64,000 bases of DNA from Pseudazoarcus pumilus. Lineage in GTDB: Bacteria; Pseudomonadota; Gammaproteobacteria; Burkholderiales; Rhodocyclaceae. Positions 6,148 through 60,811 of the stretch are shown piece by piece (within the stretch, counting starts at the first letter, position 1; each line of letters opens with the position of its first letter). A program made the translations under genes and the position numbers. Location of the stretch: NCBI RefSeq assembly GCF_002872475.1, contig NZ_CP025682.1:2542001-2606000 (forward strand), written 5' to 3'. The notes beneath the pieces were generated by a model. That model was not told where the DNA came from. It saw nothing but the letters and a program-made list of their open reading frames with translations, and ran no database searches.

Positions 6148-6924
6148 TCAGCGCGCCACGAAGATCGATCGCCCAGCGTCATCGACCACCCCGATCGGAT
6201 GGTCGAAGGCGCGGCTCAGGCGCGTCGCGTCGAGCATCGCGGCCGCGTCACCGGCCTGCGCCCCACCATCGCCGTCGAAGAGCACGACGGAATCGGCGTA
6301 GCGTGCGGCCAGATTGATGTCGTGCAGCACCATCACCACCGCGCGCCCCTGTCCGGCCAGATCCCGGAACAGGTCGAGCGCGGCGATCTGGTGGTGCAGG
6401 TCGAGATGATTGGTCGGCTCGTCGAGCAGCAGCAGACGCGGCGCTTGCACCAGCAGGGTCGCGATCGCCACGCGCTGGCGCTCGCCCCCCGAGAGGGTAA
6501 GCACATCACGCGCGGCCATTCCCGTCAGACCCACCGCGGCCAGCGCCTCGCGCGCCACGGCTGCGTCCTCGGCGCCTTCCCAGCCCCAGCGCCCCAGATG
6601 CGGGTGGCGTCCGACCAGCACCGTCTCGAGCACCGTCGCCGGAAAGTGGTCGTCCTGCTGTTGCGCGAGCAGGCCACGAAAGCGCGCCAGCTCCGCCGCC
6701 GGCCAGGCCTGCGGTGCCCGGCCGGCCAGCGACACCGAGCCGGCGGCCGGCGCACGCAGGCCGGCGAGCGTGTGCAACAAGGTGGTCTTGCCCGATCCGT
6801 TGGGGCCAAGCAGCACCACGCAGCGGCCGGCAGCGACCTCCAGCGAGACGCCGCAGCAGAACACGCGCCCGCCTGCCTGCAGGGCGAGATCACGCGCTTC
6901 GAGGAGGATTTCACCGGCGTTCAT
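6148..6924 (-). CDS. btuD: Cobalamin ABC importer ATPase, BtuD-like
   Basis: ATP-binding subunit of a FecE/BtuD-type metal-chelate importer, 258 residues. Walker A is GPNGSGKTT, the Q-loop glutamines are in AQQQDDHF, the signature is LSGGERQR, and Walker B is LLLLDEPTNHLD with the switch histidine in VLHDINLA. Its start overlaps the end of the permease gene by 4 bases, so the two subunits are coupled. B12 specificity rests on the upstream receptor gene and riboswitch, because the ATPase itself does not show substrate. Confidence 0.88.
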   Translation of the reverse strand: MNAGEILLEARDLALQAGGRVFCCGVSLEVAAGRCVVLLGPNGSGKTTLLHTLAGLRAPAAGSVSLAGRAPQAWPAAELARFRGLLAQQQDDHFPATVLETVLVGRHPHLGRWGWEGAEDAAVAREALAAVGLTGMAARDVLTLSGGERQRVAIATLLVQAPRLLLLDEPTNHLDLHHQIAALDLFRDLAGQGRAVVMVLHDINLAARYADSVVLFDGDGGAQAGDAAAMLDATRLSRAFDHPIGVVDDAGRSIFVAR

Positions 6925-7907
6925 CGGCGCGGCGCATGACGCGAGAGCAGGAACAGGAACATCGGCACGCCGATCAGCGCGGTGAGCACCCCCACCGGCA
7001 ACTGCACCGGCGCAACAACGGTGCGCGCGGCGGTGTCGGCGATCAGCAGCAAAGTGCCGCCAGCCAGCGTCGCCGCCGGCAGCAGCACGCGCTGGTCATT
7101 GCCGACAGCGAGCCGCACCAGGTGCGGCACGATCAGGCCGACGAAGCCGACCGAGCCCACCAGCGTGACCGCGGTGGCCGTCATCAGCGAGGCAGCCAAA
7201 TAGAGCACGATGCGCAGCCGCCCGACTTCCACGCCCAGGCTGCGCGCGGTCAGTTCGCCGCGCGCGAGCACGTTGAGCTCGCGCGCCCGTGGCGCGACCA
7301 GCGCCAGGGCTAGGGCCAGCACGACGAAGCCGGCCCACGGCCGCGATGCCCCGGAGGCATCGCCCATCAGCCAGAACAGCATGGAGTGCACGCGCACGTC
7401 GGTAGCCAGCGCGAGCATCAGCGTGATCGCCGCGCCGCAGCCGGCGGCCACCACCACGCCGGTGAGCAACAGACGCGTCTGCGTCCACGAGCCGTCGCCG
7501 TGCGCCAGCCCGAACACCAGCAGCACCGCGCCCATCGCCCCGGCGAAGGCGGCGCCGTCGACGATCCATGTCGCGGCACCGACGATCATCGCCGCCAGCG
7601 CACCGACCGCCGCCCCGCCGGCGATGCCGAGGATGTAGGGATCGGCCAGCGGGTTGCGCAGCAGCACCTGCATCAGCGCGCCGGCCGCCGCCAGCAGCGC
7701 GCCGGCGGCGAACACCGCCGCAGCGCGCGGCAGGCGCAACTCGCGCACGATGGCCGCATCCATGCCCTCGGCTTCCCCGCCCAGGGCGGCCAGGATGCGC
7801 GCCGGCGCAACGGCGACCTCGCCCGCCGACAGCGCCCACATCAGCGCGACCAGTCCCGCCACTGCAAGCGCGAACAAGGCGAGGATGGCGCGCCGCCGGC
7901 CCGGCAT
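6921..7907 (-). CDS. btuC: Cobalamin ABC importer permease, BtuC/FecCD family
   Basis: Inner-membrane permease with about ten hydrophobic segments, 328 residues. Family features include LRLPRAAAVFAAGALLAAAGALMQ, the RNPLADPYILGI segment, and FVGLIVPHLVRL, which contacts the ATPase. The gene lies 19 bases downstream of btuB and overlaps btuD, forming the btuBCD order on the minus strand. Related permeases carry haem or siderophores; the cobalamin call is from the riboswitch-controlled context. Confidence 0.88.
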   Translation of the reverse strand: MPGRRRAILALFALAVAGLVALMWALSAGEVAVAPARILAALGGEAEGMDAAIVRELRLPRAAAVFAAGALLAAAGALMQVLLRNPLADPYILGIAGGAAVGALAAMIVGAATWIVDGAAFAGAMGAVLLVFGLAHGDGSWTQTRLLLTGVVVAAGCGAAITLMLALATDVRVHSMLFWLMGDASGASRPWAGFVVLALALALVAPRARELNVLARGELTARSLGVEVGRLRIVLYLAASLMTATAVTLVGSVGFVGLIVPHLVRLAVGNDQRVLLPAATLAGGTLLLIADTAARTVVAPVQLPVGVLTALIGVPMFLFLLSRHAPRR

Positions 7908-7926: not shown

Positions 7927-9885
7927 TCAGAAGGCGTAGCGCGCGTCGACCATCAGCGTGCGCCCGTCGGCCGGGTAGTAGCTCTCGCCGAAGCCGTAGT
8001 TGAACGCGGTCGGCGCATACTTGCGGTCGAACAGGTTGAGCGCGCGCGCGCGCAGCGTCCACGCGTCGATGCGCTTGGACACGGCGAGATCAACCACGGT
8101 GTATGAGGGCAGGCGACGGAAGGCATTGGCGTTGTCGCCAGCGTAGTAGCGCTCGCCGACGAAGTTGGCCGCGGCATTCGCGCTCCAGCCGGACGGGCCG
8201 GTCCAGGTCAGGTTCGCGTTGGCGCTCCATTCGGGCACCAGCGGCAACCGCTCGCCGCGATTGTCGCCCGCGCGAAATTCCGCCTTCTGCCAGGTGATGC
8301 CACCGCCCAGACGCCAGGCGCGAGCGAGTTCCACGCTGCCGTCGACCTGCACGCCGCGGTGGCGGCTGCGCGCCAGATTCTCGTTCTCGAACGTCATCGG
8401 GTTGTAGGCGATCTCGTCGGTCATGTCGAGATTGTAGGCCGTCACCCCCAGACGCCAGCCCGAGCCCGAGAACTCGGCGCCGACATCGACGAAGTCCCCG
8501 ACTTCGGGGCGCACCGGCTGCGAGACGAAACCGCCGAAAGTGGTCAGCTCGTCCAGGTTGGCGAAGCGGAAGGTCTCGCCGAAACGCGTGAACACACGCA
8601 CGGCCTGCGTGATGCGCCAGCTCGCACCGGCCTCCCAGATGGTTTCCGCGTGGTCGTTGTCGCGGCGCTTGCCGCCGCTGTCGCGCGCGGACTGGTCCAC
8701 GTTCTGACGTCGCACGCCCACGCTGACGGTGAGTGCGTCGGTGAGCATCGTGTGGTTGTGCAGATAGAAGGCATCGCTTTGCTGGTCGATGCGCACGCTG
8801 TTGGTCGTCGGCGCGGACGGGCTGGCCGCGCTGTCGGCGTCGAGCCGGCCGTCGTAATGGTCGAAGCCGATAACCGTGGTGCTGGCCAGCGAGCCCAGGC
8901 CATGACGCCACTTGAGCCGCGGCGTGAGCGACAGCGTGCGCGTCTCGCGGTCCTGGAAGGTCGGCCAGTTGGAGATGAACGAACGCCCGCGCGTCTCGCC
9001 CAGTCCCAGTTCCGCCGCGAACTCCAGCGTATCGGAGAACGCGTAGCGCACGCCGGGACGCACGTAGGCACTGTCTCGCTCGGCGAAGCTGTCGTCGGTC
9101 TCGGCCTGGCGCGGATCGTCGTCGTACTGCGCGTTGGTGAGCGCACCGGGCAGGCCGAAGCGGGTCCTGGCGCCACCGGCCTCGAGGGTGATCTCGCCGC
9201 GTTCGAGTGCATAGGCGAGGTTGGCCGCGAGCGCGTTGTGCTCCTGCCGGTTGTTGTCGCGCCAGCCGCGACTGGCACGGTGTTCGGCGCTCAGTGCCAC
9301 GCTCAGGTCGCCGCTGCGCGTGGCGTAGTCGGCCGACAGTTCGCGCGTGTCGAAGCTGCCCCAGCCAGCCGTGACGCTCCCGCCCTGCTCGTCGCTCGAT
9401 GTGATGATGTTGATGACGCCGCCCACGGCATTGTCGCCATACTGAACGGCGCCGCTGCCATGGCGCACCTCGATGCGCTCGATGCGCGACAGCGGCACCT
9501 GCGACCAGTCCACACTGGCCGAATCGAGCGGATTGAGGCGCCGGCCATTGAGCAGCACCAGCACGCGCTGTGCGCCACCCTCGCCGAAGCCGCGCATGTC
9601 CACCGCGGTATCGCCGGTCACGCTGCCGTACAGGCCGCGCACCTGCACGCCGGTGACGCGGCGCAGCACGTCGGGCACGGACAGCGCGCCGCTCGCGGCG
9701 ATCTCCTCGCGCGAGATCGTGACCACACGGCCGATGACGTCGATCGATTGTTCGGGAAAGCGCGTCGCGGTCACGATGACCGGCTCGCCGATGGATTCGT
9801 GCACGAGCGTCTGCGCAGCTGCGCCCGACGCGAGGACAGCCGTCAGGGCCGCCGGAACGGCGGATACGAGGGGATGGGATTTCAT
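7927..9885 (-). CDS. btuB: TonB-dependent outer-membrane receptor, BtuB-like
   Basis: Outer-membrane beta-barrel receptor for vitamin B12 uptake, 652 residues. It has a signal peptide (PAALTAVLASGAAAQ), a TonB-box-like stretch (EPVIVTATR), a plug domain (PDVLRRVTGVQVRG and VLVLLNGRRLNPLD) and a barrel ending in an aromatic residue (DARYAF), as required for barrel assembly. The ATG at 9885 follows a GGAG; the frame extends to 9918 without support. Expression is expected to fall when cobalamin is abundant because a complete B12 riboswitch precedes it. Barrel families are hard to assign by substrate alone, so the name leans on that RNA element. Confidence 0.9.
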   Translation of the reverse strand: MKSHPLVSAVPAALTAVLASGAAAQTLVHESIGEPVIVTATRFPEQSIDVIGRVVTISREEIAASGALSVPDVLRRVTGVQVRGLYGSVTGDTAVDMRGFGEGGAQRVLVLLNGRRLNPLDSASVDWSQVPLSRIERIEVRHGSGAVQYGDNAVGGVINIITSSDEQGGSVTAGWGSFDTRELSADYATRSGDLSVALSAEHRASRGWRDNNRQEHNALAANLAYALERGEITLEAGGARTRFGLPGALTNAQYDDDPRQAETDDSFAERDSAYVRPGVRYAFSDTLEFAAELGLGETRGRSFISNWPTFQDRETRTLSLTPRLKWRHGLGSLASTTVIGFDHYDGRLDADSAASPSAPTTNSVRIDQQSDAFYLHNHTMLTDALTVSVGVRRQNVDQSARDSGGKRRDNDHAETIWEAGASWRITQAVRVFTRFGETFRFANLDELTTFGGFVSQPVRPEVGDFVDVGAEFSGSGWRLGVTAYNLDMTDEIAYNPMTFENENLARSRHRGVQVDGSVELARAWRLGGGITWQKAEFRAGDNRGERLPLVPEWSANANLTWTGPSGWSANAAANFVGERYYAGDNANAFRRLPSYTVVDLAVSKRIDAWTLRARALNLFDRKYAPTAFNYGFGESYYPADGRTLMVDARYAF

Positions 9886-9901
9886 CGATGGACTCCGGTT
9901 G

Positions 9902-9921
9902 TCCGTGCGCCCCCGCACGGA
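9902..9921 (-). promoter_or_regulatory. Hairpin between riboswitch and btuB ribosome site
   Basis: Perfect 8-bp stem TCCGTGCG / CGCACGGA with a 4-base loop, lying just ahead of the GGAG (complement of 9893-9896) and the btuB ATG. It may be part of the riboswitch expression platform that hides or frees the ribosome site; the mechanism is inferred. Confidence 0.5.
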
Positions 9922-10004: not shown

Positions 10005-10220
10005 TGTCCGGGCCGGTATCCGGGCTCGCAGACTGAACGGCCGGCCCTGAAGGGCCTCCGCCGGACACATCGCCTTCCCAAACTCGCGTTCAGTGGCTGT
10101 GAGGATGCGTCTTTCGTCTGCTTACCGTTGCGGGGGCAGCACAGGACTTGCGTGGACCGGCCGAACCGGTCACGCGCACCTGTTTCCCGTTCAACCCTGC
10201 GGCACGATCTGCCGCCGGGC
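10005..10220 (-). ncRNA. Cobalamin (AdoCbl-type) riboswitch upstream of btuB
   Basis: Minus-strand leader with the conserved cobalamin riboswitch blocks in order. First is TTGAACGGGAAACAGGTGC (about 10176-10194), then TGCCCCCGCAACGGTAAGC (around 10118-10136), then the TTTGGGAAGG segment. Last is the B12 box GAGCCCGGATACCGGCC (10011-10027). In this class, ligand binding rearranges the downstream RNA and shuts off translation or transcription of B12 uptake genes. It controls the leftward btuB unit and not divergent cobT. The outer boundaries are approximate because the closing stem was not folded. Confidence 0.9.
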
Positions 10221-10372
10221 ACCTGGAGCACGCTCGCCCGTGAGGCGAGGCACGCATGATAGCGCGAAGCCATGCCGTCGTCACAGTCCGCGCGCCCCGC
10301 CCCCGGACATCCCCGATGCGCACTGCGAAGCCGGTGGTAGACTGGCCGCGGACACGACGACGACCCCAGCGC

Positions 10373-17912: not shown

Positions 17913-18731
17913 ATGAACCACGTGTGGCTCGCCCCGCCCTTCGACCGCCTGTGGGCGGACCGCGACCCCTTCGAGGCCGTCGAGGCCCTGCAGGGCGAGA
18001 CCTTCCGCGAACTGGAAGCACGCCGTACCCTGCGCTTCGAAATCGAGGGACGTGCCTATTTCGCCAAGCTGCACCGCGGCGTGGGCTGGTTCGAGATCGT
18101 CGAGAATCTGGCGCGCGGGCGCATTCCGGTGCTCGGTGCGGAGAACGAGTACTCCGCCATCGGCCGGCTGGAAGAACTCGGCGTGGCCACCATGACGCCG
18201 GTGGCCTTCGGCCAGCGCGGCGCCAATCCGGCCACGCGGCGCTCGTTTCTGGTCACCGAGGCGCTTGAACCGACGCAGCCGCTCGACGAACACTGCCGCA
18301 GCTGGCGCAACGACCCGCCCGATACGCGCTGGCGCCGCGCCGTGATCGAGCGCGTGGCCGAAATGACGCGGCGCATGCACGAGGGCGGCATCAACCACCG
18401 CGATCTGTATCTGGTGCACTTCCTGCTGCATCTCGACCCGGCTCCGACGCCGGACGATTTCCGCATCTCGCTGATCGACCTGCACCGCGCGCAGATTCGC
18501 GCAAGCACCCCGCGCCGCTGGCGCGACAAGGATCTGGCCGCGCTGAATTTCGCCTCGCTGGAAGCGGGCCTGACTGACCGCGACCGGCTGCGCTTTGCAC
18601 GCATCTACTTCGGACGGCCGCTGCGCGCGGTGCTGCGCGACGAGGCACGGCTGTTCGCGTTTCTCGAGCGCGAGGGCCTGCGCCTGATGGCGCGCTGGAA
18701 ACGAAAATTCGCTCCGGGAGCGACGTCGTGA
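17913..18731 (+). CDS. waaP: LPS core heptose(I) kinase
   Basis: Eukaryotic-like kinase of the WaaP (RfaP) family that phosphorylates heptose I of the inner core, a modification important for outer-membrane integrity. Seen are LQGETFRELEARRTLRFEIEG at the glycine-poor lobe, FAKLHRGVGWFEI with the ATP-contacting lysine, and EYSAIGRLEELGV. The catalytic loop HRDLYLVHFLLH follows, with LIDLHRAQ in the DFG position. The 272 residues match the family. First of three successive kinase genes; the next starts inside its stop codon. Confidence 0.93.
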   Translation: MNHVWLAPPFDRLWADRDPFEAVEALQGETFRELEARRTLRFEIEGRAYFAKLHRGVGWFEIVENLARGRIPVLGAENEYSAIGRLEELGVATMTPVAFGQRGANPATRRSFLVTEALEPTQPLDEHCRSWRNDPPDTRWRRAVIERVAEMTRRMHEGGINHRDLYLVHFLLHLDPAPTPDDFRISLIDLHRAQIRASTPRRWRDKDLAALNFASLEAGLTDRDRLRFARIYFGRPLRAVLRDEARLFAFLEREGLRLMARWKRKFAPGATS

Positions 18732-19477
18732 AGCACTGGACGCTCGCCCCCGAATACGCGCACGGCGCAGCCGCCGAGGCCTTCGCGAGCCTGGATGCGG
18801 TGTTCGACCTGTGCGGCGAGCATGTGGCCGCCGCGCCGATGTCCGAAGTCGTGCGCGTCGACATCGCCGGCACGCGCTATTACGTCAAGCGCTACAGCGG
18901 CGCCGGCAAGAACCCGCTGCGGCGCTGGTTCGCGCGACCGCGCGTGCAGATCGAGTGGGAGAACCTGCGCCGTTTCGCTGCCTGGAGCATTCCCACCGCC
19001 CCCGTCGTCGGCTACGGACTGGAACGCCGCGCCGGCGCCTTCGTGCGCGGCGCGATGATCACCGAGGAAATCCCCGACACCAGCGATCTGGCGGCCCTGG
19101 CGATCCGGGACGACACGCGCCTGCACGACGGGGCGTGGGTCGATGCGGTGTCGCGCCAGATCGCGCGCATCGCGCGCACGCTGCACGCCCACCGCTTCGC
19201 CCACAACGACCTCAAGTGGCGCAACCTGCTGGTCACGACGGGCGAGGCGTCCACGGTGTTCCTGATCGACTGCCCCGCAGGCATGCACTGGCCCGAGCCG
19301 TTCCTGCGTCACCGCATCGTCAAGGATCTGGCCTGCCTGGACAAGGTCGCCAAGCAGCAACTCACGCGCACCCAGCGCCTGCGCTTCTACCATCACTACA
19401 CCGGCCGCACACGCCTGAATGCGGCTGATCGCAAGCGCATCCGCCACGTGCTGCGCTACTTCGAGGGGCGCGAATGA
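18728..19477 (+). CDS. WaaP/InaA-family LPS kinase
   Basis: 249-residue kinase-fold protein. A GTG at 18728 overlaps the waaP stop (GTGA). Lysines of the ATP site are in YYVKRYSG, the catalytic loop reads HNDLKWRNLLV, and LIDCPAG replaces the DFG-type metal site while keeping the aspartate. It probably phosphorylates another core sugar (heptose II or Kdo), as related genes in Pseudomonas core clusters are thought to do. The specific acceptor is not readable from sequence. Confidence 0.82.
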   Translation: MKHWTLAPEYAHGAAAEAFASLDAVFDLCGEHVAAAPMSEVVRVDIAGTRYYVKRYSGAGKNPLRRWFARPRVQIEWENLRRFAAWSIPTAPVVGYGLERRAGAFVRGAMITEEIPDTSDLAALAIRDDTRLHDGAWVDAVSRQIARIARTLHAHRFAHNDLKWRNLLVTTGEASTVFLIDCPAGMHWPEPFLRHRIVKDLACLDKVAKQQLTRTQRLRFYHHYTGRTRLNAADRKRIRHVLRYFEGRE

Positions 19478-20889
19478 GCGCGCCACGCACCGATGTCGCG
19501 ACGCTGCGCGCGGCCGGACGCGAACCCGCGCTGCCTGCGACGCTGTTGCTCGACGACGGACGCGAACTGCATCTGCTGCGCGCGCTGCGCGTGCTGCCCG
19601 GCAAGCGGCTGACCGCCGAAGCACAACTCGACGGCGAGCCGGTGCTCGCCAAGCTCTTCCTCTCCGCCAAGGCCTCCCGCCACGCAGCGCGCGAACGCGC
19701 CGGGCTCGAAGCGTTGATCGCCGCCGGCTTGCCCACGCCGGCACACGTGGCCGATGCGACCCTGCACGGCGGGGGCGAACTGGTCGCCACACGCTTTCTA
19801 CCCGGCGCGACCAGCCTGCTCGATGCCTGGAACGCACTGCCACGCCCGCCCGCAGACACCGCCGCCATCGCCTTGCTGGCACCGGCACTGGCGCTGCTCG
19901 CGCGCATGCACGCGGCCGGGCTGACCCAGAGCGATCTGCATCTGGGCAATTTCCTGCAGCAGGGCAATACGCTGTATCTGGTCGACGGCGACGCGGTCGA
20001 ATCCCATCCCGCCCCGCTCGCGCCAGATGCGGCGCGCGCGAACCTGGCCATTCTGCTTGCGCAATTGCCCCTGTCCTGGGACGCCCACCTGAACGCGCTG
20101 ATCGCGCCCTATGTCGCGGCCGGCGGCGACGCACCGGAACCCGCGGCCCTGCTGCGCGAAATCGCCGCGGTGCGCGAATGGCGTCTGACCGACCTGCTCG
20201 CCAAGAGCGTGCGCGACTGTTCGCTGTTCGCCGTGAGCCGCTCGGCCACGCGCTTCAGCTCGGTCGTGCGCGACGAGGCGGACGCGCTCGCCCCGCTGCT
20301 CGCCGACCCGGACGCGGCGATGCTCGCCGGGACCGTGCTCAAGGATGGCAACACCGCGACGGTCGCGCGCATCGACGTCGGCGCACGCGCGCTGGTCATC
20401 AAGCGCTACAACCTCAAGAGCGCACGCCACGCCCTGTCGCGTCTGTGGCGCCCCTCGCGCGCCTGGCATTCCTGGCGCGCCGCCCACCGACTGGCCTTCT
20501 TCGGCATCGCCACGCCACGCCCGCTCGCGCTCATCGAGGAACGCGCCGGCCCGCTGCGCCGACGCGCCTGGCTCGTCACCGAACACTGCCCGGGGCCGAA
20601 CCTGCTCGAAGTGCTCGACGCCGACGCGCCGCCCCCCGACCACATCGCCGCCGCGCTGAGCGAGACCTTGCGCACCTTGCACACGGCCCGCATCCATCAC
20701 GGCGACCTCAAGGCCACCAACCTGCTGTGGCACGACGCGCGCCTGTGGCTGATCGATCTGGACGCGACCACCGCGCATCGCTCGAGCGCGGCATTCGAGC
20801 GCGCCTGGGCGCGCGACCGCGCACGGCTGCTGCGCAACTGGCCGGCCGGAAGCGCGCTGGTCGAGTGGCTGGAGCGCGCCCTGCCATGA
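19474..20889 (+). CDS. Tandem two-domain LPS kinase-like protein
   Basis: 471 residues holding two kinase-fold units in one chain. The first (about residues 1-230) has VLAKLFLS for the lysine, QSDLHLGNFL for the catalytic loop and LVDGDAV for the metal site. The second (about 270-471) has LVIKRYNLK, HGDLKATNLLW and LIDLDATT. Both keep the aspartates expected for catalysis, although the first loop has Q-S-D instead of H-x-D. It begins with an ATGA overlap with the preceding kinase gene. The double architecture suggests phosphorylation at two positions or a catalytic/regulatory pair; neither is shown by sequence alone. Confidence 0.75.
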   Translation: MSAPRTDVATLRAAGREPALPATLLLDDGRELHLLRALRVLPGKRLTAEAQLDGEPVLAKLFLSAKASRHAARERAGLEALIAAGLPTPAHVADATLHGGGELVATRFLPGATSLLDAWNALPRPPADTAAIALLAPALALLARMHAAGLTQSDLHLGNFLQQGNTLYLVDGDAVESHPAPLAPDAARANLAILLAQLPLSWDAHLNALIAPYVAAGGDAPEPAALLREIAAVREWRLTDLLAKSVRDCSLFAVSRSATRFSSVVRDEADALAPLLADPDAAMLAGTVLKDGNTATVARIDVGARALVIKRYNLKSARHALSRLWRPSRAWHSWRAAHRLAFFGIATPRPLALIEERAGPLRRRAWLVTEHCPGPNLLEVLDADAPPPDHIAAALSETLRTLHTARIHHGDLKATNLLWHDARLWLIDLDATTAHRSSAAFERAWARDRARLLRNWPAGSALVEWLERALP

Positions 20890-20973: not shown

Positions 20974-23900
20974 ATGCAGCAAACCCAGGTCAGCGTGGTG
21001 GTGCCCGCATACAACCACGCCCGCTACGTCGTCGAAGCCGTCGAAAGCGTCCTCGCGCAGGACATCGACGGTCTCGAGTGCATCGTCATCGATGACGCCT
21101 CCACCGACGACACGCGCGAGCGGTTGGCCACCCTCGACGACACGAGAGTGCGCGTGATGCACCACGACACCAACCGCGGCGCGCACGCGACGCTGACCGA
21201 AGGCCTGGACGCCGCGCGCGGGCGCGTGCTTGCCGTGCTCAACTCCGACGACCGCTACCTGCCAGGCCGACTGGCCGAATGCATGGCGTACATCGACGCC
21301 GGCCATGATCTGGTCGGCAGCGACATCCGCCTGATCGACGGCGACGGCGCCGAGGTGCTGGAACACTGGTGGATCGATGCCTTCGCCGCGCTCAAGCGGG
21401 TGCGCGCCGACGGCGGCGACTGGGTCGCCAGCCTGCTCGAGGGCAACGTCTTCATGACCACCTCGAACATGGTGTTCACCCGAGCGCTGTGGCAGCGCCT
21501 GCGCCCGCTGCGCAATCTGCGCTACGTGCATGACTATGACTTCGTGCTGCGCGCGTTGCGCGAGGGCGCACGCCTGGACTGGATCGACACGCCGCTGCTC
21601 GACTACCGCCTGCACGAGGCGAACACGATCTCTGCCGGGCCGCTGGCGGCCAACCTCGAATGCACGGCCTTGCTGCGCGAACACCTGCCGGCACTGCTCG
21701 CGCGTACCGATGCCCCGGAGACTGCCCTGCAGCATCTGGCCTCGCAGTGGTCACGCTGCGAGCGCTACGAAGTCGACATCCTGCGCGCATTGCAGCACGA
21801 AGCGCTGGTCGAGAAGGACCGCGACTGGGGACGCATGGTCGAGGACCGCGACCGCTGGATCGCCGAGCGCGATGCCTGGATTGCCGAGCGCGATGCCTGG
21901 ATTGCCGAGCGCGACCGCCGCATACGGGATCGCGATGACTGGATCGTCGAGCGCGACATGCTGATTGCAACCTTGCGGGTACGCCTGGACGAATTGCACC
22001 GCACACCGCTGCGCTACGCCTGGCGCCGGACCCGCGAGCGGCTCGGACACTTGCGCAGTCGCGCGGCACGCGCATTCTCGGCGATGCAGCTGCCCGGACG
22101 CCGGGCTCCGACCCGCGCAGCCGGCTTCAATGCGCTACGCGGCGGCGTCGAACGCGCTGGCGCGGGACTGTCCGCGATCAGTTTCGACGTGTTCGACACC
22201 CTGGTCGAACGCTGTGTCGAACCGCCCGAATGGATCCACCGGCGCGTTGCCCACGAACTGGCGAACGCACTCGCACGCGACGACATCGATACCGTGTGGG
22301 CCGCCCGCCGCAACGCCGAGACACGCCTGCGCAAGCGCGCGCTCGAGGACGGACGCGACCACGAATGTCATTACGACGAGTTGCTGCACGCATGGGTGAC
22401 CGAACTGTGCGGTCGTCCCGACGCGGCGCTGATCGCGCGCGCACAGGACTTCGAGGCACGCCTCGAACGCCATGCCTTGCGCGCCAAGCCCGGCGCGGCG
22501 GCCTTCCTCGCATGGGCGCGGGAACGCGGTCTGCGCTGCATCGCGGTCTCCGACATGTATCTGGGCGAGAGCCATGTGCGCGAGATCCTCGCGCACTGCG
22601 GACTGGGCGAGTCGATCGACGCCGTGCACGTCTCGTCCGAGCATGGTCTGGCCAAGTACTCGACGCGGCTGCACGCACATGTGCTCGAACTCGAGGGGCT
22701 GACGGTCGCGCAGGTGCTGCATGTGGGCGACAATCTCTATTCGGACGCGCTGGCCCCCTGCCGCATCGGCATGCACGGCGTGTGGTTCGACGACGCGCGC
22801 GCGCGTCGCCGCCGCCGGCGCCAGCGTCGTTCGGCACAGATGACCGCCCGCGGCGGCATCTGGCCGGGCCGCATGCAGGCCGAGATCGTCGCCGAGCGGC
22901 TCGCACTCGAGGCGCGCACGACCGATGCCGACCCCTACTACCGCTACGGGCTGGAAGTGCTCGGCCCGATCTTCTCGCTGTTCACACTCGGACTGGTCGA
23001 GCGGCTGCGTGCACGGCCCGCCGACCGGCTGATGTTCCTCGCGCGCGACGGCCATCTGTTCATGCGCATGTACGCGCGCTGGCGCGAACTGGACGACGAC
23101 GACGCGCTGCCCGAGCCGTCCTATGTCTACGCCAGCCGACGCGTGGTCGCCAGCGCCGCCGTCGCCGACGGACTCACCGCGGCGATGATCCCCATCGCAC
23201 TGGCCAATCCCAAGCAGTGCGGGCTCGCATCCATCCTCAAGACCTACGGTCTGCTTGCCGAGGATTTCCAGGAAGCTGCCGCGCGCCACGGCCTGCAGCC
23301 AATCGATGCGCCGCTGGCAGCGGCCGACGACGAACGCCTGACGGCCTTTCTCGCCGACGACGCGGTGCAGGCGGCGATCCGCACCCACGGGCGGCGCGCA
23401 CGCACGCGGCTGGAGAAGTATTTCGAGCAGCAGGGATTCTTCGGCAGCCGCGACGTGGCCTTCGTCGACATCGGCTGGAATGGCACGATCCAGCATTTTC
23501 TCGCCGAGAGCTTCGGCACGCGCGCCGACTACCCCGACGTGGCCGGCTACTACTTCGCACTGGTCAACAGCTTCCACACGCCGGGCGAGCGCTGCGGCCT
23601 CACCGACGGCCTGCTGCTCGACGGCAAGCGCGGCAACCCGTGCGAACGTGCGGCGATGGATTTCGAAGAGTTGTTCGAGCAGGGCGCGCGCGCGCTCGAA
23701 GCCACCACGCTGAGCTACGACGAGGATGCCGACGGCCGCGTCATCCCAGTCCTCAAGGGCGACGACGCCCCCGACCGTCGCGAGGAACTGGCCTGCAATC
23801 CGCGCATCGACGCGCTGCAGCGCGGCGTGCTCGCCCACCTGGAACACTTCCACGCCGCACAAACGCTGACCGGCTTCGATTTCGAGGCGCTGCGTCCCTA

Positions 23901-24177
23901 CGGTCTGGCGCTGATCGAGCGCGCCGTGGTCTATCCCGAGCGCGACGAGGTCGCGCTGGTCGGCGGCCTGGCGCATTCGGAGGATTTCGGTCACGACCAC
24001 GTGCTCGACATTTCCGGCGGCGACATCGGCTGGCGCGACTTCCTGAGACCACGCCGGCTCTCGCAGCGCCTGCGCGCGCAGGCCTGGCGCTACGCCCCCT
24101 TCGCCCGTTTTCGCAACCCGCTGCCGGCCCTCCTAGCGCGCGTGCAGCATCTGCGCCAGTTGCGCGGGAGGCCCTGA
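20974..24177 (+). CDS. GT2 glycosyltransferase fused by heptad repeats to HAD-type domain
   Basis: 1067-residue multidomain protein. Residues 1-220 are a GT2 glycosyltransferase (VSVVVPAYNHARYV; the NSDDRY metal-binding motif). Residues about 289-332 are seven-residue repeats of the form D-x-W-I-x-E-R, predicted coiled coil. From about 402 a HAD hydrolase-like domain begins (SFDVFDTLVE, later SDMYLG and VGDNLYSDALAP). The remaining 450 residues contain MFLARDGHLFMRMY and FVDIGWNGTIQHFL, typical of large HAD-related proteins in polysaccharide loci. It lies at the end of the LPS core unit, so transfer of a sugar or phospho-sugar to LPS is likely, but the exact reaction is unknown. Confidence 0.85.
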   Translation: MQQTQVSVVVPAYNHARYVVEAVESVLAQDIDGLECIVIDDASTDDTRERLATLDDTRVRVMHHDTNRGAHATLTEGLDAARGRVLAVLNSDDRYLPGRLAECMAYIDAGHDLVGSDIRLIDGDGAEVLEHWWIDAFAALKRVRADGGDWVASLLEGNVFMTTSNMVFTRALWQRLRPLRNLRYVHDYDFVLRALREGARLDWIDTPLLDYRLHEANTISAGPLAANLECTALLREHLPALLARTDAPETALQHLASQWSRCERYEVDILRALQHEALVEKDRDWGRMVEDRDRWIAERDAWIAERDAWIAERDRRIRDRDDWIVERDMLIATLRVRLDELHRTPLRYAWRRTRERLGHLRSRAARAFSAMQLPGRRAPTRAAGFNALRGGVERAGAGLSAISFDVFDTLVERCVEPPEWIHRRVAHELANALARDDIDTVWAARRNAETRLRKRALEDGRDHECHYDELLHAWVTELCGRPDAALIARAQDFEARLERHALRAKPGAAAFLAWARERGLRCIAVSDMYLGESHVREILAHCGLGESIDAVHVSSEHGLAKYSTRLHAHVLELEGLTVAQVLHVGDNLYSDALAPCRIGMHGVWFDDARARRRRRRQRRSAQMTARGGIWPGRMQAEIVAERLALEARTTDADPYYRYGLEVLGPIFSLFTLGLVERLRARPADRLMFLARDGHLFMRMYARWRELDDDDALPEPSYVYASRRVVASAAVADGLTAAMIPIALANPKQCGLASILKTYGLLAEDFQEAAARHGLQPIDAPLAAADDERLTAFLADDAVQAAIRTHGRRARTRLEKYFEQQGFFGSRDVAFVDIGWNGTIQHFLAESFGTRADYPDVAGYYFALVNSFHTPGERCGLTDGLLLDGKRGNPCERAAMDFEELFEQGARALEATTLSYDEDADGRVIPVLKGDDAPDRREELACNPRIDALQRGVLAHLEHFHAAQTLTGFDFEALRPYGLALIERAVVYPERDEVALVGGLAHSEDFGHDHVLDISGGDIGWRDFLRPRRLSQRLRAQAWRYAPFARFRNPLPALLARVQHLRQLRGRP
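21850..21954 (+). repeat. Tandem 21-bp coding repeats
   Basis: Five successive 21-base units inside the GT2-HAD gene. The units at 21871-21891 and 21892-21912 are identical (GATGCCTGGATTGCCGAGCG plus C) and the unit at 21850 differs by a few bases; the last two are diverged. They encode the heptad D-x-W-I-x-E-R. Identical adjacent units point to recent slippage or unequal crossover. Confidence 0.85.
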
Positions 24178-24469: not shown

Positions 24470-27097
24470 GTGACCGCTCGCCACCTCGCCCTCGCCCTGT
24501 GCGCGCTGACGCTCGCCGCCACGCCGCTTTCCTCGCAGTCCCAGACCTGGTCCGGGGCCGTCGCGACCGCGCCCGCGACATCGACCTGGCTGCTCGCCGT
24601 ACAGGTCCATCCGCGCAACGCCATCGCCGACATGGATGTGCCCCCCGACGAGGCCCTGGAAGCGATCGCGACCGCCACCGGAACCACGGTCGCGTTCGTC
24701 GGACGCGCCACGTCGCGCGGCCCCTTCCTGTTGCGCCTGAGCGACGGCGATGACTTCGATGCAATCAGCGATGGTGCCAATGCGGTGCGCATGCTCGACG
24801 ACGTGCTGTGGGTCTCGATTCTTTCCGAGGCCGACGCCGCCGCCCCTGTCACACCATCGTCCGGAGGACCGGCGCAGGCCGCAGGCGAGACAGTCTCGCG
24901 CATCCTGGTGAACTTCCGCGACCCGGCCACGCAACGGGCTCGTTCGCGCCAGGACGCCCTGCCCGAGTTGCTGATCGAGGCCATGCGCCGGCAGGCCGGC
25001 AGCAACCTCGAGCTGGTCCGCGCGATGTCGGGCGGCGCCTGGGTGTTCGATCTGCCCCAAGCACTGCCCGAGCCCGACGCCGTGGCGCTGATCGCACGGC
25101 TACGGGCGATGCCGCAGGTCGCGTCGGTCAGCGCCTCGCAACGCGTCCTGCCGCAATTGGAGCCGAATGATCCCTACTTTCCGATCACCGGCTCACTGGG
25201 CCAGTACAACCTGGTCGCGCCCGGCACCGCGGGCCCTTGGGGCGGCCCGGTGTTCGGCATCGATGCGGTCAACGCCTGGAACATCACGACCGGCTCGACC
25301 AATAACCGCGTCGCGGTGCTCGACACCGGCGTGCTGTTCAACCACCCCGACATCGCCGGCCGGTTCATGCCGGGCTACGACTTCGTCGACAACGACAGCA
25401 ACGCCTCCGACCCCGGTGACTACTGCAACGTGGAAGGTCAGGAGAGCGCCAGTTCCTGGCACGGCACCCACATTTCCGGCACCATCGCCGCGAACACCAA
25501 CGACGGCGTCGGCGCGGCCGGCGTCGACTGGGCCACGCGCATCGTGCCGGTGCGGGTGCTCGGCCAGTGCGGCGGCATGGCCGAGGACGTCATCGACGGC
25601 ATGCGCTGGGCGGCCGGCCTGCCCGTTCCCGGCACGCCGGTGAATGCCAATCCGGTTCGTGTCATCAACCTGAGTCTGGCCGGCATCGGCGCCTGTACCG
25701 CGTCCTGGCAGCAGGTCATTGACGACGTCACCGCCGCCGGGGCGCTGGTGATCGTCTCGGCCGGCAACTACCAGAGTCCGATCGACAACTATTCCCCGGC
25801 CTCGTGCAACGGCGTGATCACCGTCGTCGCCTCCGACCCCAACGGCGACAAGGCCTCCTACAGCAATTTCGGCGGCAACCGACTGCCCGAACTGGCCGCA
25901 CCCGGCGGCGACCTGGGCCGCTTCGGCGATGTCCGTGCGGGCATTATCGCGGCCGGCAATGACGGCACGACAACCCCAAAAAACAACGTAATGATGTCTA
26001 TGTCCGGCACCAGCATGGCCGTGCCGCACGTGGTGGGCACCGCCTCGCTGATGTTGGCCATCAACCCGGCGCTGTCACCGTCGCAACTGTTCTCGATGAT
26101 CACCGCCACCGAGAATCTCACCGCGTTCGCGCACGATTCGGACTTCACGTTCAACTATCCGCTGGGAGGACGGGGCATCCTCAACGCCTACAAGGCCGTG
26201 CAGGCGGCGCAGGCCACCGTCCAGCCACCGGCGCCGGGGGGCGCGGCGCCGATGCTGCTGCGCGACGCGATCTACCTGTACGGACAGCCGCTCACGGCGA
26301 ACGGCGGCCAGAACCTGGTCGGCGTCGATTGCGACGTGTTCCAGCTCGTGCTCGACGTCACGTCGGGCCACACCGACCTGGCCATGGGTCAGGCCTCGAC
26401 GCTGGCCGGCTCGCTGGCCGGCGCGACGCCCTACCCGGACCGCATTTTCTCGTCTGCCGCGATGTTCGCCTATGCGCTCTACGGCCCGGAGCAGGTCAAG
26501 AGCTTCACCGCACGCGACGCGATCACGCCGGAATCGGAAGACGTCGTAGGCACTGCCACGGCTTTCGGCTACTGCTTCTCGCGCAACCCGGACGCACGCG
26601 TCTACGCGCATGACAAGACGAGTTGCACCAACGTCTATTCGGACGGACGACAGACCGCCTGCACCGCGACCGACAACGGTGTCGGCGGCGCCGCACCGAG
26701 CGCGATGACGCTGCGCGACGCGATCTATCTGTACGGCGAGGATGTGCGTGCCGACGGCCAGCTGCAGCTGGGTGGCGACCAATGTGACGTGCTGCAACTG
26801 GTGCTCGACGTCGAATCCGGGCACGCCGACCTCACCATGACCGAAGGCGCGTCGTCCTTCGACTACCCCGACCGCATCTTCGCCGCAGCCGACATGTTCG
26901 CCTACGCGCTGTATTCGGACGCGCCGCACAAGCGCTTCGGCCTGGGCCAGCATGACGGCGACGCGGACGGGCTGGTCGGCAATGCCACGGCCTTCGCGTA
27001 CTGCTACTCCACCCAGCCGGACGCCTACGTCTATTGGAAGGACGGTCAGACGCCGATGTGCACGAGGTCAAACGGGCAAGAAACCACCTGCCCGTAG
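24470..27097 (+). CDS. Secreted S8 subtilisin-like protease with two C-terminal repeat modules
   Basis: 875-residue exported serine protease. A signal peptide (LALALCALTLAATPLSS) is followed by an N-terminal region and propeptide to about residue 230. The catalytic domain has Asp285 (VLDTGV), His331 (HGTHISG) and Ser515 (GTSMAVPH); cysteine pairs inside it suggest disulfides. Two copies of an unfamiliar module of about 130 residues close the protein (about 594-725 and 742-875), each with LRDAIYLYG, CDV.QLVLDV.SGH, YPDRIF, MFAYALY and ATAF.YC. The same module forms most of the convergent neighbour. The stop codon TAG lies inside a REP-like arm (GTAGGTCGG). Confidence 0.9.
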   Translation: MTARHLALALCALTLAATPLSSQSQTWSGAVATAPATSTWLLAVQVHPRNAIADMDVPPDEALEAIATATGTTVAFVGRATSRGPFLLRLSDGDDFDAISDGANAVRMLDDVLWVSILSEADAAAPVTPSSGGPAQAAGETVSRILVNFRDPATQRARSRQDALPELLIEAMRRQAGSNLELVRAMSGGAWVFDLPQALPEPDAVALIARLRAMPQVASVSASQRVLPQLEPNDPYFPITGSLGQYNLVAPGTAGPWGGPVFGIDAVNAWNITTGSTNNRVAVLDTGVLFNHPDIAGRFMPGYDFVDNDSNASDPGDYCNVEGQESASSWHGTHISGTIAANTNDGVGAAGVDWATRIVPVRVLGQCGGMAEDVIDGMRWAAGLPVPGTPVNANPVRVINLSLAGIGACTASWQQVIDDVTAAGALVIVSAGNYQSPIDNYSPASCNGVITVVASDPNGDKASYSNFGGNRLPELAAPGGDLGRFGDVRAGIIAAGNDGTTTPKNNVMMSMSGTSMAVPHVVGTASLMLAINPALSPSQLFSMITATENLTAFAHDSDFTFNYPLGGRGILNAYKAVQAAQATVQPPAPGGAAPMLLRDAIYLYGQPLTANGGQNLVGVDCDVFQLVLDVTSGHTDLAMGQASTLAGSLAGATPYPDRIFSSAAMFAYALYGPEQVKSFTARDAITPESEDVVGTATAFGYCFSRNPDARVYAHDKTSCTNVYSDGRQTACTATDNGVGGAAPSAMTLRDAIYLYGEDVRADGQLQLGGDQCDVLQLVLDVESGHADLTMTEGASSFDYPDRIFAAADMFAYALYSDAPHKRFGLGQHDGDADGLVGNATAFAYCYSTQPDAYVYWKDGQTPMCTRSNGQETTCP

Positions 27098-27120
27098 GTC
27101 GGCGCGAGCGCAGCGAGGTC
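27094..27120. repeat. REP-like arm, copy C (single arm)
   Basis: GTAGGTCGGCGCGAGCGCAG followed by CGAGGT is the reverse complement of the right arm of copies B and G. Its TAG is the subtilase stop codon. A 7-bp inverted repeat ACGGGCA/TGCCCGT (27072-27095) overlaps its left end and could act as a weak terminator. Confidence 0.65.
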
Positions 27121-27177
27121 CGGGCAGCGGCGGCGAGGCGGGCGGTAACTTTCTTGAGCGACCGCGCGCCACCGCAA

Positions 27178-27747
27178 TCAGTCGAAGAACTCGTCGTAGG
27201 TGTTCCAGAAAGCGCTGTCCGCGTTGGCCTTGGTCGAGAAGCAGTAGCCGAACGCCGTCACCCGGGCCGGCTGGTTGTCGCCCTCGTAGTCCCCGTTCTT
27301 GAGCAAGAAGCCTTTGAGCGGATTGTTGGAGTAGAGGGTGTAGGCGAACATGCCGGCCCCGACGCCCAGCTTGTCCGGATAAATACTCATACCCTGGCTC
27401 AGTTGATACTCCGACGTCCCCGCCGCCTCTACGGTCACCAGGGACACCGCCCCGTCGAGCACCGTCATCACGAGCTGGTAGATGTCGCAATCGACGGCCA
27501 GGAACAAGAGTTCGTACCCCTCCGGCACGATGTTCTCGTGGTAACGATAGTGCGCATCACGCAGCAGCAGATTGCCGTTGACCAGTGCGTTGGGCTTGAC
27601 GGTGGAACTCCCGTTAGCCCGCTCCTGCTCGAACTCCCAGAGCCTGTGCTCGATGGTGTCGGTCGCGTCCGGGGGAATATGCTGGGCGAACGGTCCCGTG
27701 GCGAACGTCGCCAGAAACAAGGATGACAGAATCAGTTTTGACTTCAT
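27178..27747 (-). CDS. Small secreted protein made of the subtilase C-terminal module
   Basis: 189-residue protein starting at the ATG at 27747 behind a clear GAGGAG. It has a signal peptide (KLILSSLFLATFATGPFAQ), then one module homologous to the two repeats at the end of the neighbouring protease. Shared positions: LLRDAHYRY, VDCDIYQLVMTV, YPDKLG, MFAYTLYSNNPLKGF and VTAFGYCFS. No known family is recognised. Convergent orientation, only 80 bases from the protease stop, and the shared module suggest a partner role, for example a ligand, inhibitor or chaperone of the protease; that is inference. The longer frame to 28044 runs into msbA antisense and is not credible. Confidence 0.8.
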   Translation of the reverse strand: MKSKLILSSLFLATFATGPFAQHIPPDATDTIEHRLWEFEQERANGSSTVKPNALVNGNLLLRDAHYRYHENIVPEGYELLFLAVDCDIYQLVMTVLDGAVSLVTVEAAGTSEYQLSQGMSIYPDKLGVGAGMFAYTLYSNNPLKGFLLKNGDYEGDNQPARVTAFGYCFSTKANADSAFWNTYDEFFD

Positions 27748-55466: not shown

Positions 55467-56615
55467 ATGACGAATACAGCATCGCCCCCTCCGCAACGAG
55501 AGCCAAACCTGCAACCCGACGAAATCGACCTGCGGGAAGTCATTCTGAGTCTGTGGGCACGACGCTGGCTGATCGCCATCTTAACCGTCATGGGCGCGCT
55601 CATCGGCCTCGCGCTCAGCCTGCATTCCACGCGCCACGTCGCGCAGACGGTGCTGCTGGCTCCCGGCATGGATGTCACCACCTATCGCAGATACGAAATC
55701 GCGCTGCAGGACCGCGGCAATTTCGAAGGTTTTCTCGACCGGCAGCAACAGTCTTCCGACGCCATCGGCAGGTTGCGCGACCTGGCCCCGCAATCGCTCG
55801 GTGCATGGATTCGCCCCAGGTTCAGCCTCACCGAGCAGGAAGCCCGGGCCATGGGCATCCGCCCCGACGGCAATCGCGACATGCTCGGCTTCAACCTGCG
55901 CATCGAAAGCCGCGACGCCGGCGCCGCACAACTGATCCCCGTCCTCTCCGAGTACGTACGCGACACCGTCACACGCGTCGACATCGCCAGCAGTGCCAGC
56001 GCATCCTGCACCCAGGCACGCTCCGCCCTCGGCGAACTCGCAGCCGCACAGCTCGAAGTCCAATCGCAACGGGAGCAACTCGCCGCCCGCGCAGATCGGC
56101 TGCGCGCCCTGCTTGCACAGGCAGACACCCTGCGCCCATCGGTCACATCCGCATTCGTGCCCACACCCGAAGAAACCGTGATGTCGAGACTCATCGAGAC
56201 GGAAATCGACATCGCAGACAGCGAACTCGACATCGCAGCGCAGACACGTCAAACGCAACTGGAAGATCTGCGCGCCAGCTACTACTGCACCTTGCAAACG
56301 TTGAGCGCACAAGCGCCGTCCGCGACGGCACTCATCGAACAAGCTGGCGACCTCATCGACCAAACGAAGTCGAATGATTCCGTCGAACAAGACCCGCTAT
56401 TGAAGCAACTCTACGGGACGCTCGCCGCCGAATACGACCTGTGGCGAATCGCCCATCAACGTACTACGAACATCGGCTCCCCGAGTGAAGCTGAAGACTC
56501 CAAGAGCCGCCGCCCTACCCTCTCCGTTGCGGCGGGCGTCGGCGCATTCGGCGGGATGTTCATCGGCTTCTTCCTCACTCTTGTCCTTGGATGGTGGGGA
56601 AGGACCGCCTCCTGA
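55467..56615 (+). CDS. Wzz-type chain-length determinant protein
   Basis: 382 residues: a short cytoplasmic tail, helix LIAILTVMGALIGLALSL near 35-52, a long periplasmic region rich in coiled coil (RSALGELAAAQLEVQSQREQLAARAD) and a second helix GGMFIGFFLTLVLGWW at the C-terminus. This two-helix frame is that of polysaccharide co-polymerases. It starts the rightward polysaccharide group. The periplasmic part is not close to enteric Wzz by eye, so the role is by architecture. Confidence 0.78.
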   Translation: MTNTASPPPQREPNLQPDEIDLREVILSLWARRWLIAILTVMGALIGLALSLHSTRHVAQTVLLAPGMDVTTYRRYEIALQDRGNFEGFLDRQQQSSDAIGRLRDLAPQSLGAWIRPRFSLTEQEARAMGIRPDGNRDMLGFNLRIESRDAGAAQLIPVLSEYVRDTVTRVDIASSASASCTQARSALGELAAAQLEVQSQREQLAARADRLRALLAQADTLRPSVTSAFVPTPEETVMSRLIETEIDIADSELDIAAQTRQTQLEDLRASYYCTLQTLSAQAPSATALIEQAGDLIDQTKSNDSVEQDPLLKQLYGTLAAEYDLWRIAHQRTTNIGSPSEAEDSKSRRPTLSVAAGVGAFGGMFIGFFLTLVLGWWGRTAS

Positions 56616-56619
56616 TCGC

Positions 56620-57789
56620 ATGACAAAGAATCACGAAATCAACCGCGCATCGACTAACGAACAAGTCGTCGCAATCATTCAGCGCCGCCTTACCCATTAT
56701 CGGGTTCCCCTATTCGAGCGTCTCCGCGATAGCCTCGCCGAGCAAAACATCCGACTTCGACTCGTGCATGGTGAACCTACTGAGGCTGAACGATCCAAAC
56801 GTGACGAAGGTCAGTTAGATTGGGCCGAGAAAATCAGAAACACTTACGTTCGTATCGGCAAAACTACGCTGTGTTGGCAGCATCTTCCCGAAGACCTTGA
56901 TCAAGTTGACCTAGTCATTCTGACGCAAGAGAACAGTATCTTATCCAACCTGCCCTGGCTTCTTAGAAAACGACAGAACGGGCCACGCATCGCCTTCTGG
57001 GGTCATGGAGCAAATTTTCAATCCGCATCGCCCAGAGGCATCAAGGAATCGTTCAAACGATGGACCACTAACCGGGTGGACTGGTGGTTTGCATATACTG
57101 ATTTGAGCACCTCTCAGATCGCAGAATCCGGATTCCCTGCCTCACGCACCACAACCCTCAACAACGCAATCGATACCGTTGCTCTGGCAAAAGACCTTGA
57201 ATCGACCACTACGGAAGACATTGAAAAGCTACGTCAAGATCTCGGCCTCAAAGAGGGGAGAACGGGGATATTCATCGGCTCTCTTTACCCCCAAAAGCGC
57301 CTAGACTTCTTGATAACGGCTGCAATCGAAATCCGCGACCGCCTGACGGACTTTTCCCTGATTATTGTGGGCGACGGACCGGAGAGGCAACGCGTAGCTC
57401 AAATGGCGTCCTTGCACCCATGGATACATGTCATCGGCGCACTGCACGGCCGTGAAAAGGCAAAATACCTGCGCTGCTCCGACGTGATACTCAACCCCGG
57501 ACTTGTGGGCCTTGGCATACTTGATTCATTTTCTGCAGGCGTACCGCTAATAACCACAGAGTACCCATTCCATTCCCCTGAGATTGCCTATCTTCGCCAT
57601 CGCACCAATGGAATACGCACTCAAAACTGTCCAACTTCATACGCCTCCGAAACGGTGCACCTCCTAACGGATCCTGAAACCTTGCGGGATCTTCGCAACA
57701 ACCTGAAATTCTGCGCCGCACGTTATAGTCTTTACGCCATGAACGAAAATTTCGCATCCGGAATATATAAATCACTTAAAAATTCTTAG
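56620..57789 (+). CDS. GT4-like glycosyltransferase
   Basis: 389 residues. Early VVAIIQRRLTHYRVPLFERL and later GTGIFIGSLYPQKRLDFLI-type sequence (GIFIGSLYPQKRLDFL), VGDGPERQRVAQ, and an end region with GVPLITTEYPFHSPEIAYL, consistent with a GT4/GT1-like fold. The E-x7-E pair is not obvious. The ATG at 56620 follows the Wzz-like stop closely; the frame open to 56485 overlaps that gene. From here DNA becomes clearly richer in A/T. Confidence 0.75.
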   Translation: MTKNHEINRASTNEQVVAIIQRRLTHYRVPLFERLRDSLAEQNIRLRLVHGEPTEAERSKRDEGQLDWAEKIRNTYVRIGKTTLCWQHLPEDLDQVDLVILTQENSILSNLPWLLRKRQNGPRIAFWGHGANFQSASPRGIKESFKRWTTNRVDWWFAYTDLSTSQIAESGFPASRTTTLNNAIDTVALAKDLESTTTEDIEKLRQDLGLKEGRTGIFIGSLYPQKRLDFLITAAIEIRDRLTDFSLIIVGDGPERQRVAQMASLHPWIHVIGALHGREKAKYLRCSDVILNPGLVGLGILDSFSAGVPLITTEYPFHSPEIAYLRHRTNGIRTQNCPTSYASETVHLLTDPETLRDLRNNLKFCAARYSLYAMNENFASGIYKSLKNS

Positions 57790-57814
57790 AAGATCAAAAC
57801 CAGGTAGAAAACCT

Positions 57815-58459
57815 ATGATCAGTAGAAAGTCACTTCGCAGCGCCGCTAAATTGGCATATGTTTTATTGCACATACCGATCTCTCGAATTCAGTTCAGAAA
57901 GCTAAAATCCACCACATCAATTAAACTCAACCTGGGCTCCGGAAAAACAAAAGGCCGTCAAGGATGGACAACCGTCGACCTACACGGGGCCGACATTGTT
58001 CACGACTTGAGGTGGGGGATCCCCTTACCTAACAACTCGGTAGACTTTATTTACTCCTCACACACACTTGAACACATCCCTTATCCACACCAAAATCCGT
58101 TCCTTGTTGAGTGCGTGCGCGTACTTAAACCTGGCGGAATCATCTCTCTTGCTGTTCCAAACGCATCCCTATATGTCGACGCCTATGTGAGCAGGAGACC
58201 ATTCAGAGATCCCTCTTCACTATATAAACCTGCAGCCGTGAACACCGGCTCACACCTCGACCAATTGAACTACATTGCATACATGGGTGGAGAACATCAT
58301 TACCTTTTTGACGAACAAAACCTCCAGAATACCTTAAAGTTAGCGGGATTTTATGACGTCCGTCTGCGCCCCTTCGATTCAGCAATTGATCATGCGGAGC
58401 GCGACTTCGAATCCATATACGTAGAGGGCAGAAAATCCGGCACAACAACCCAGAATTGA
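57815..58459 (+). CDS. Class I SAM-dependent methyltransferase
   Basis: 214 residues. The SAM-binding LNLGSGKTKGRQGWTTVDLH comes first, then IVHDLRWGIPLPNNSVDFIYSSHTLEH, the post-I acidic and motif regions, and VLKPGGIISLAVPNASL. This is a small Methyltransf_11-like enzyme common in polysaccharide clusters. The acceptor is unknown. A/T-rich DNA and codon use differ from the flanking core genome. Confidence 0.85.
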   Translation: MISRKSLRSAAKLAYVLLHIPISRIQFRKLKSTTSIKLNLGSGKTKGRQGWTTVDLHGADIVHDLRWGIPLPNNSVDFIYSSHTLEHIPYPHQNPFLVECVRVLKPGGIISLAVPNASLYVDAYVSRRPFRDPSSLYKPAAVNTGSHLDQLNYIAYMGGEHHYLFDEQNLQNTLKLAGFYDVRLRPFDSAIDHAERDFESIYVEGRKSGTTTQN

Positions 58460-58464
58460 TAATA

Positions 58465-59427: not shown

Positions 59428-59445
59428 CGCTTCGTTTTACACTTT

Positions 59446-60204: not shown

Positions 60205-60222
60205 AAAGAGAATCCATCCTCG

Positions 60223-60810: not shown

Positions 60811-60811
60811 T

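Follow-up and report, generated by a model that had tools for sequence, protein, structure and literature searches.

A predicted jelly-roll module shared by a secreted subtilase and its convergent neighbour in Pseudazoarcus pumilus, and its association with one clade of ribofuranosyltransferases

The stretch of DNA analysed here, called the window, comprises 64,000 nucleotides of Pseudazoarcus pumilus (contig NZ_CP025682.1, positions 2,542,001 to 2,606,000). It includes the gene of a secreted subtilase, preceded directly by that of a large glycosyltransferase and followed on the other strand by that of a small secreted protein (Table 1). According to a preliminary description of this locus, the subtilase ends with two copies of a repeated module and a third copy constitutes the convergent protein; the coordinates, strands and gap that it gave all proved correct. 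The module is about 135 residues long. The small protein consists of a signal-peptide-like stretch, then a short linker, then the module. No terminator-like site was found in the gap between the two convergent genes. The product of the protease gene belongs to peptidase family S8, as had been proposed: it matches PF00082 and its Asp, His and Ser motifs (VAVLDTGV, HGTH and GTSM) are present.

Table 1. Features of the protease locus, with positions counted from the first nucleotide of the window
Feature	Position	Strand	Basis
GT2 glycosyltransferase fused to HAD phosphatase/phosphoribosyltransferase, beta-ribofuranosyltransferase type, 1067 aa, immediately preceding the protease gene	20974..24177	+	Pfam GT2 and HAD; PDB 7SHG
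HAD phosphatase (PRP) and gPRT part of the preceding gene	22156..24174	+	used in the co-occurrence survey
Secreted S8 subtilase, 875 aa, GTG start, two modules at the C-terminus	24470..27097	+	ORF and translation
Subtilase catalytic domain, residues 280-548	25307..26113	+	Pfam PF00082, E 1.8e-47
Module copy 1, protease tail	26252..26683	+	profile match; AlphaFold model m8336f56f275f, pLDDT 92.9
Module copy 2, protease tail, reaching the last residue	26702..27094	+	profile match
Gap separating the convergent genes, 80 bases	27098..27177	.	ORF coordinates
Free-standing module protein, 189 aa, signal-peptide-like N-terminus	27178..27747	-	translation; profile match, full E 8.4e-61
Module copy 3, inside the free-standing protein	27181..27570	-	alignment of the three copies and profile match

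Just upstream of the glycosyltransferase gene (17913-20889, + strand), the genes at 18728 and 19474 match the Kdo/WaaP LPS kinase family, which indicates an LPS core locus. A cobalamin riboswitch (Rfam RF00174, 85 bits) lies at 10007-10227 on the - strand, with apparent TonB receptor and ABC transporter genes downstream of it (7927-9918 and 6148-7907). GC content drops to 45-57% in the region 56000-62000, the first half of the window being at about 69%. This region includes an IS30-like transposase ORF (60853-61881); from these two features, it is likely an acquired island.

The alignment of the three copies of the window has 35 invariant columns, and the motifs L-R-D-A-x-Y-x-Y, C-D-x-x-Q-L-V, Y-P-D, M-F-A-Y-x-L-Y and A-F-x-Y-C follow each other in all three, as the preliminary description had reported. 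The likeness is far beyond chance: when the free-standing protein was compared with its own 3.2 Mb genome by tblastn, both protease tails were found (E 1.6e-17 and 2.0e-15, 39-40% identity) and no further match. A profile of the three copies retrieved about 30 further copies from other genomes, with E values down to 1e-42. The claim that the module lies outside the named families was confirmed: neither single copies nor the three-copy profile matched Pfam, NCBIfam, PHROGs or PDB sequences, and no family match emerged when 29 copies were scanned one by one against Pfam and NCBIfam, and a 29-copy profile against PDB sequences. The Pfam scan of the 29 copies lists only two unrelated families, the best at E 0.058; there was no match to a specific lectin or CBM family by sequence, nor to the SLH domain in the Pfam and NCBIfam scans. 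Like the module, the PPC (PF04151) and P/Homo B (P-proprotein, PF01483) domains and the tail of Tk-SP are C-terminal beta-sandwiches on secreted proteases. However, none of the 29 copies matched either of these two Pfam families or any Pfam carbohydrate-binding module at E values up to 1, and the module adds free copies and a link with a glycosyltransferase.

Few of the genomes surveyed carry the module. The three-copy profile detected it in seven of the 399 genomes of the window's family, a survey in which divergent modules may have escaped because this three-sequence profile is narrow. With the 29-copy profile, it was found in 2/399 genomes of the order, in three of 100 Thiobacillaceae, in four of the 22 genomes of an Azoarcus-like genus and, among 369 genomes of the class, only in the own genome of the window. 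The surveyed genome bins are incomplete, genes were called by a simple script and, in some searches, only a small number of candidates was scored for each genome. The carriers come from a few Betaproteobacteria; a scan of named genome contigs detected the module in Thiobacillus and Azoarcus MAGs and in the isolate Betaproteobacteria bacterium MS502-43. A phage or plasmid origin was rejected, since searches of phages, plasmids and the viral contigs of IMG/VR gave no match. A role in anti-phage defence was likewise rejected, the PADLOC matches being generic subtilase profiles only. Literature searches on COG5610 together with glycosyltransferase, and on a sorting-type tail common to both kinds of protease described below, found nothing.

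In larger proteins, the module is the last or nearly the last domain. S8 subtilases of the window and of Thiobacillus end with two copies, and trypsin-like S1 proteases, unrelated to S8, end with a single copy in the Azoarcus-like genus. The aligned module-bearing proteases possess the catalytic residues of S8 or S1. One genome (G360) holds about ten copies, several of them on large proteins without recognised protease domain, some of which carry InlB-type repeats. The modules of this genome (L037, L042-L046) lie on contigs other than that of its ribofuranosyltransferase gene, several of them on large secreted proteins. Thus, the module is not specific to proteases.

Loci fetched twice were counted once (L025/L035, L026/L123, L028/L122, L029/L124, L031/L034 and L033/L040). 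Among the ten protease loci that could be read on both sides, seven have an adjacent free copy, which is convergent and 24-82 bases from the protease gene in the window, L026, L027 and L029, and in tandem in L034, L035 and L040. Genes that encode only the module thus do recur beside module-bearing proteases, a point that the preliminary description had proposed to survey; at L028, L032 and L042, no nearby free copy was found. At L041, whose neighbour is truncated at the contig end, there is probably an adjacent free copy too. At L028 (7349-9694) and L032 (6535-8943), two Thiobacillus loci, the next gene encodes a TPR-GT41 (OGT-like) glycosyltransferase. In the module tree, the free copies of the termite Azoarcus-like genus form one branch (90/92) and the tails a separate one (98/96); outside this genus, placement is unsure. 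In relatives, the free copies show purifying selection (dN/dS 0.16-0.19). That of the window evolves fast: no other member of the family is as divergent, its end branch measuring 2.76 changes per column, and it lacks a C-terminal cysteine-containing stretch present in most copies.

The structure prediction of the module alone (AlphaFold2, 24 aligned copies), which the preliminary description had recommended, gives an almost all-beta sandwich with a pLDDT of 92.9 and a pTM of 0.87, so that a jelly-roll beta-sandwich is predicted with confidence. Two invariant cysteines might pair as a disulfide. This predicted fold has no clear relative. A Foldseek search of the PDB with the model returned no entry with an E value under 1e-3. 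After realignment, a spore-appendage subunit (VIA Z 8.1) and GOLD domains (7.8) rank first, and the Tk-SP subtilase tail (Z 6.4) and CBM51 (Z 5.8) come lower down. Searches by fold, in the PDB and among viral models, yielded only generic jelly rolls (spore appendage, GOLD, C1q-like and capsid domains among them), none of them outstanding; such a widespread fold does not assign the module to a family. The jelly-roll fold is frequent among binding domains.

The enzyme encoded directly upstream of the protease contains a HAD phosphatase and a phosphoribosyltransferase homologous to PDB 7SHG, a polysaccharide ribofuranosyl transferase, and thus belongs to the PRP-gPRT enzymes. The HAD and C-terminal part matches 7SHG over positions 9-526 of profile A4 (E 6.1e-39) and the capsule enzyme Bcs3 (E 7.4e-14); with the single sequence, the match to 7SHG has an E value of 4.8e-14. 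The same entries rank first when the predicted structure of the enzyme (pLDDT 75) is compared with the PDB by Foldseek (7SHG, E 2.2e-19). The homology with 7SHG and with the CrpP/CriT of Bcs3 extends over most of this part. However, the enzyme of the window differs from them in being fused to a GT2 domain, although in Thiobacillus GT2 and PRP-gPRT are encoded by two separate genes, and in being associated with a family of secreted proteins. PRP-gPRT enzymes transfer beta-ribofuranose phosphate from PRPP onto a glycan, with subsequent removal of the phosphate, and those characterised work on glycans in the cytoplasm (PMC11127046, PMC10299916). By homology, the enzyme of the window would be active as a PRPP-dependent beta-ribofuranosyltransferase. 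Outside the window, the same genome encodes a second, distant HAD/gPRT-like protein (G000:C1:2668528-2669406, 78 bits).

The module and this enzyme co-occur. In the 399 genomes of the family, close homologues of the enzyme (over 1000 bits, with two candidates scored per genome) were found in nine and the module in seven, all of them among these nine. Counted by genome, the hypergeometric probability of this overlap is 1e-13, and counted by genus it is 6e-6, both values ignoring shared ancestry. The full GT2-HAD protein, searched in 150 relatives, had retrieved only its own genome, and the HAD-gPRT profile was used instead because common GT2 domains crowd the few candidates scored. In the same way, the four genomes of the Azoarcus-like genus and the three Thiobacillaceae that hold the module are the very ones that hold the enzyme, and every module-bearing genome searched with both probes has the enzyme. 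Only two genomes (G139 and G314) have a close homologue of the enzyme but no detected module. When the neighbouring genes of 15 loci were grouped, GT2/PRP-gPRT proteins were found at 14 loci and module proteins at 12; the count of the enzyme is taken from the profile survey, because the GT2/PRP-gPRT group of neighbours chains in other GT2 enzymes. The next most shared family, which to judge from its sequence is probably the permease of an ABC-2 type polysaccharide transporter, occurs at 4/15 loci; no other family is widely common to the 15 loci, and the remaining neighbours differ.

The PRP-gPRT tree groups the enzymes of the window, of Thiobacillus, of the Azoarcus-like group and of G139/G215 in a clade of 14 rows (99/97). 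The module is found on all four deep branches of this clade and in no searched genome that lacks it. G215 encodes the module and the enzyme on different contigs, and the co-occurrence is therefore not only a matter of close physical linkage. Shared inheritance on a polysaccharide island could nevertheless account for much of it. In another genome (G305, L039), a decayed module gene (6446-6916) adjoins an intact ribofuranosyltransferase gene.

The module ends unlike exported proteins, exists in a free form and is linked to a single enzyme of glycan synthesis. For these reasons, the reading that fits best is that of a surface-retention domain that reads the glycan made by the GT2-PRP-gPRT enzyme, to which a probability of about 0.42 can be given and in which the binding is suggested by the co-occurrence. 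Capture of the protease at a surface was among the options of the preliminary description; it is retained here as the best-fitting one, in a form that involves the ribofuranosyltransferase gene directly upstream, which had gone unseen. The same linkage and co-occurrence would be expected if the module were instead an acceptor, the GT2-PRP-gPRT enzyme, with other glycosyltransferases, glycosylating the proteins that bear it. Dedicated glycosyltransferases modify linked autotransporters, and the GT41 family, encoded next to the protease in two Thiobacillus loci, includes protein glycosyltransferases. However, the PRP-gPRT enzymes that have been characterised work on glycans in the cytoplasm, whereas the hosts of the module have signal-peptide-like N-termini and the module would acquire its fold once exported. 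Furthermore, G139 and G314, which have the enzyme without detected module, would need another acceptor. Since the enzyme occurs without a detected module and no searched genome showed the module without the enzyme, a reader of the product fits better than a sole acceptor, and the acceptor hypothesis appears unlikely.

The module could also be an ordinary folding, stability or secretion domain, comparable to PPC or to the Tk-SP tail, its link with the enzyme being due to co-transfer on a polysaccharide island. Subtilases with jelly-roll C-terminal domains are indeed known, the Tk-SP tail is among the weak fold matches and the distribution of the module is patchy. Purifying selection on free-standing copies, attachment to unrelated hosts and an association kept across a deep enzyme clade while the other neighbours changed all argue against this explanation, which seems rather doubtful. 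As for the free copy, its position beside a module-bearing protease at most testable loci and the separate clades of free copies and tails in the termite Azoarcus-like genus would suit a binding partner of the tail, whether inhibitor, chaperone or protector of the protease. However, the same free family accompanies both S8 and S1 proteases and is thus unlikely to recognise one active site; moreover, the S8 proteases of L028 and L032 have no free copy nearby, and the 19 kb contig of G215 that carries a free copy encodes no protease recognised as bearing the module. Such a partnership is distinctly improbable. The narrower proposal of an inhibitor, or of a pair, specific to the subtilase finds no support, as the module also ends S1 proteases and proteins without recognised protease domain; a dedicated protease-specific inhibitor was judged unlikely on the same grounds.

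If the module is a glycan-reading surface domain, the GT2-PRP-gPRT enzyme would make, in the cytoplasm, a surface glycan containing beta-ribofuranose, for which LPS, O-polysaccharide or exopolysaccharide are candidates. The exported module would recognise this glycan, and one or two C-terminal copies would hold proteases with unlike folds, as well as other large proteins, on the cell surface. The free copy would be a secreted one-domain lectin that could act on the same glycan close to the protease, by occupying, cross-linking or capping it. We infer these three elements, i.e., the activity of the enzyme on a surface glycan, the binding of this glycan by the module and the role of the free copy, from the associations described above. 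Taken as a whole, these elements would make up a new Gram-negative surface-display system: a dedicated GT2-ribofuranosyltransferase would supply the ribofuranose glycan, and proteins would be kept on the cell surface by an undescribed jelly-roll lectin domain that reads this glycan, either on its own or as part of proteases and other large secreted proteins. Such a system can be put forward as a tentative proposal that is less probable than its alternatives together.

Two known systems offer partial parallels. SLH domains are anchored to a secondary cell wall polymer pyruvylated by CsaB (PMC6030368). The likeness is one of logic only, a terminal domain of unlike exported proteins being tied to one epitope-making enzyme, and the module does co-occur with an enzyme that could make its ligand. 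However, the SLH system is Gram-positive and its domain works as a trimer, with another fold and no sequence match to the module, whose binding to a glycan is here suggested by association. The S-layer protein RsaA of Caulobacter, which is attached to the O-antigen of LPS (PMC6978808), is similarly an exported protein of a Gram-negative bacterium kept on the surface by a glycan, but it forms a lattice and a PDB sequence search revealed no sequence relation to the module.

Whatever the mechanism, an undescribed domain family tightly associated with one glycosyltransferase clade provides a testable lead. If the proposed reading is true, the module and its enzyme would represent for Gram-negative bacteria what SLH/CsaB anchoring is for Gram-positive ones, one clade of the recently characterised ribofuranosyltransferases would gain a biological role, and the module would serve as a marker for finding displayed proteins.
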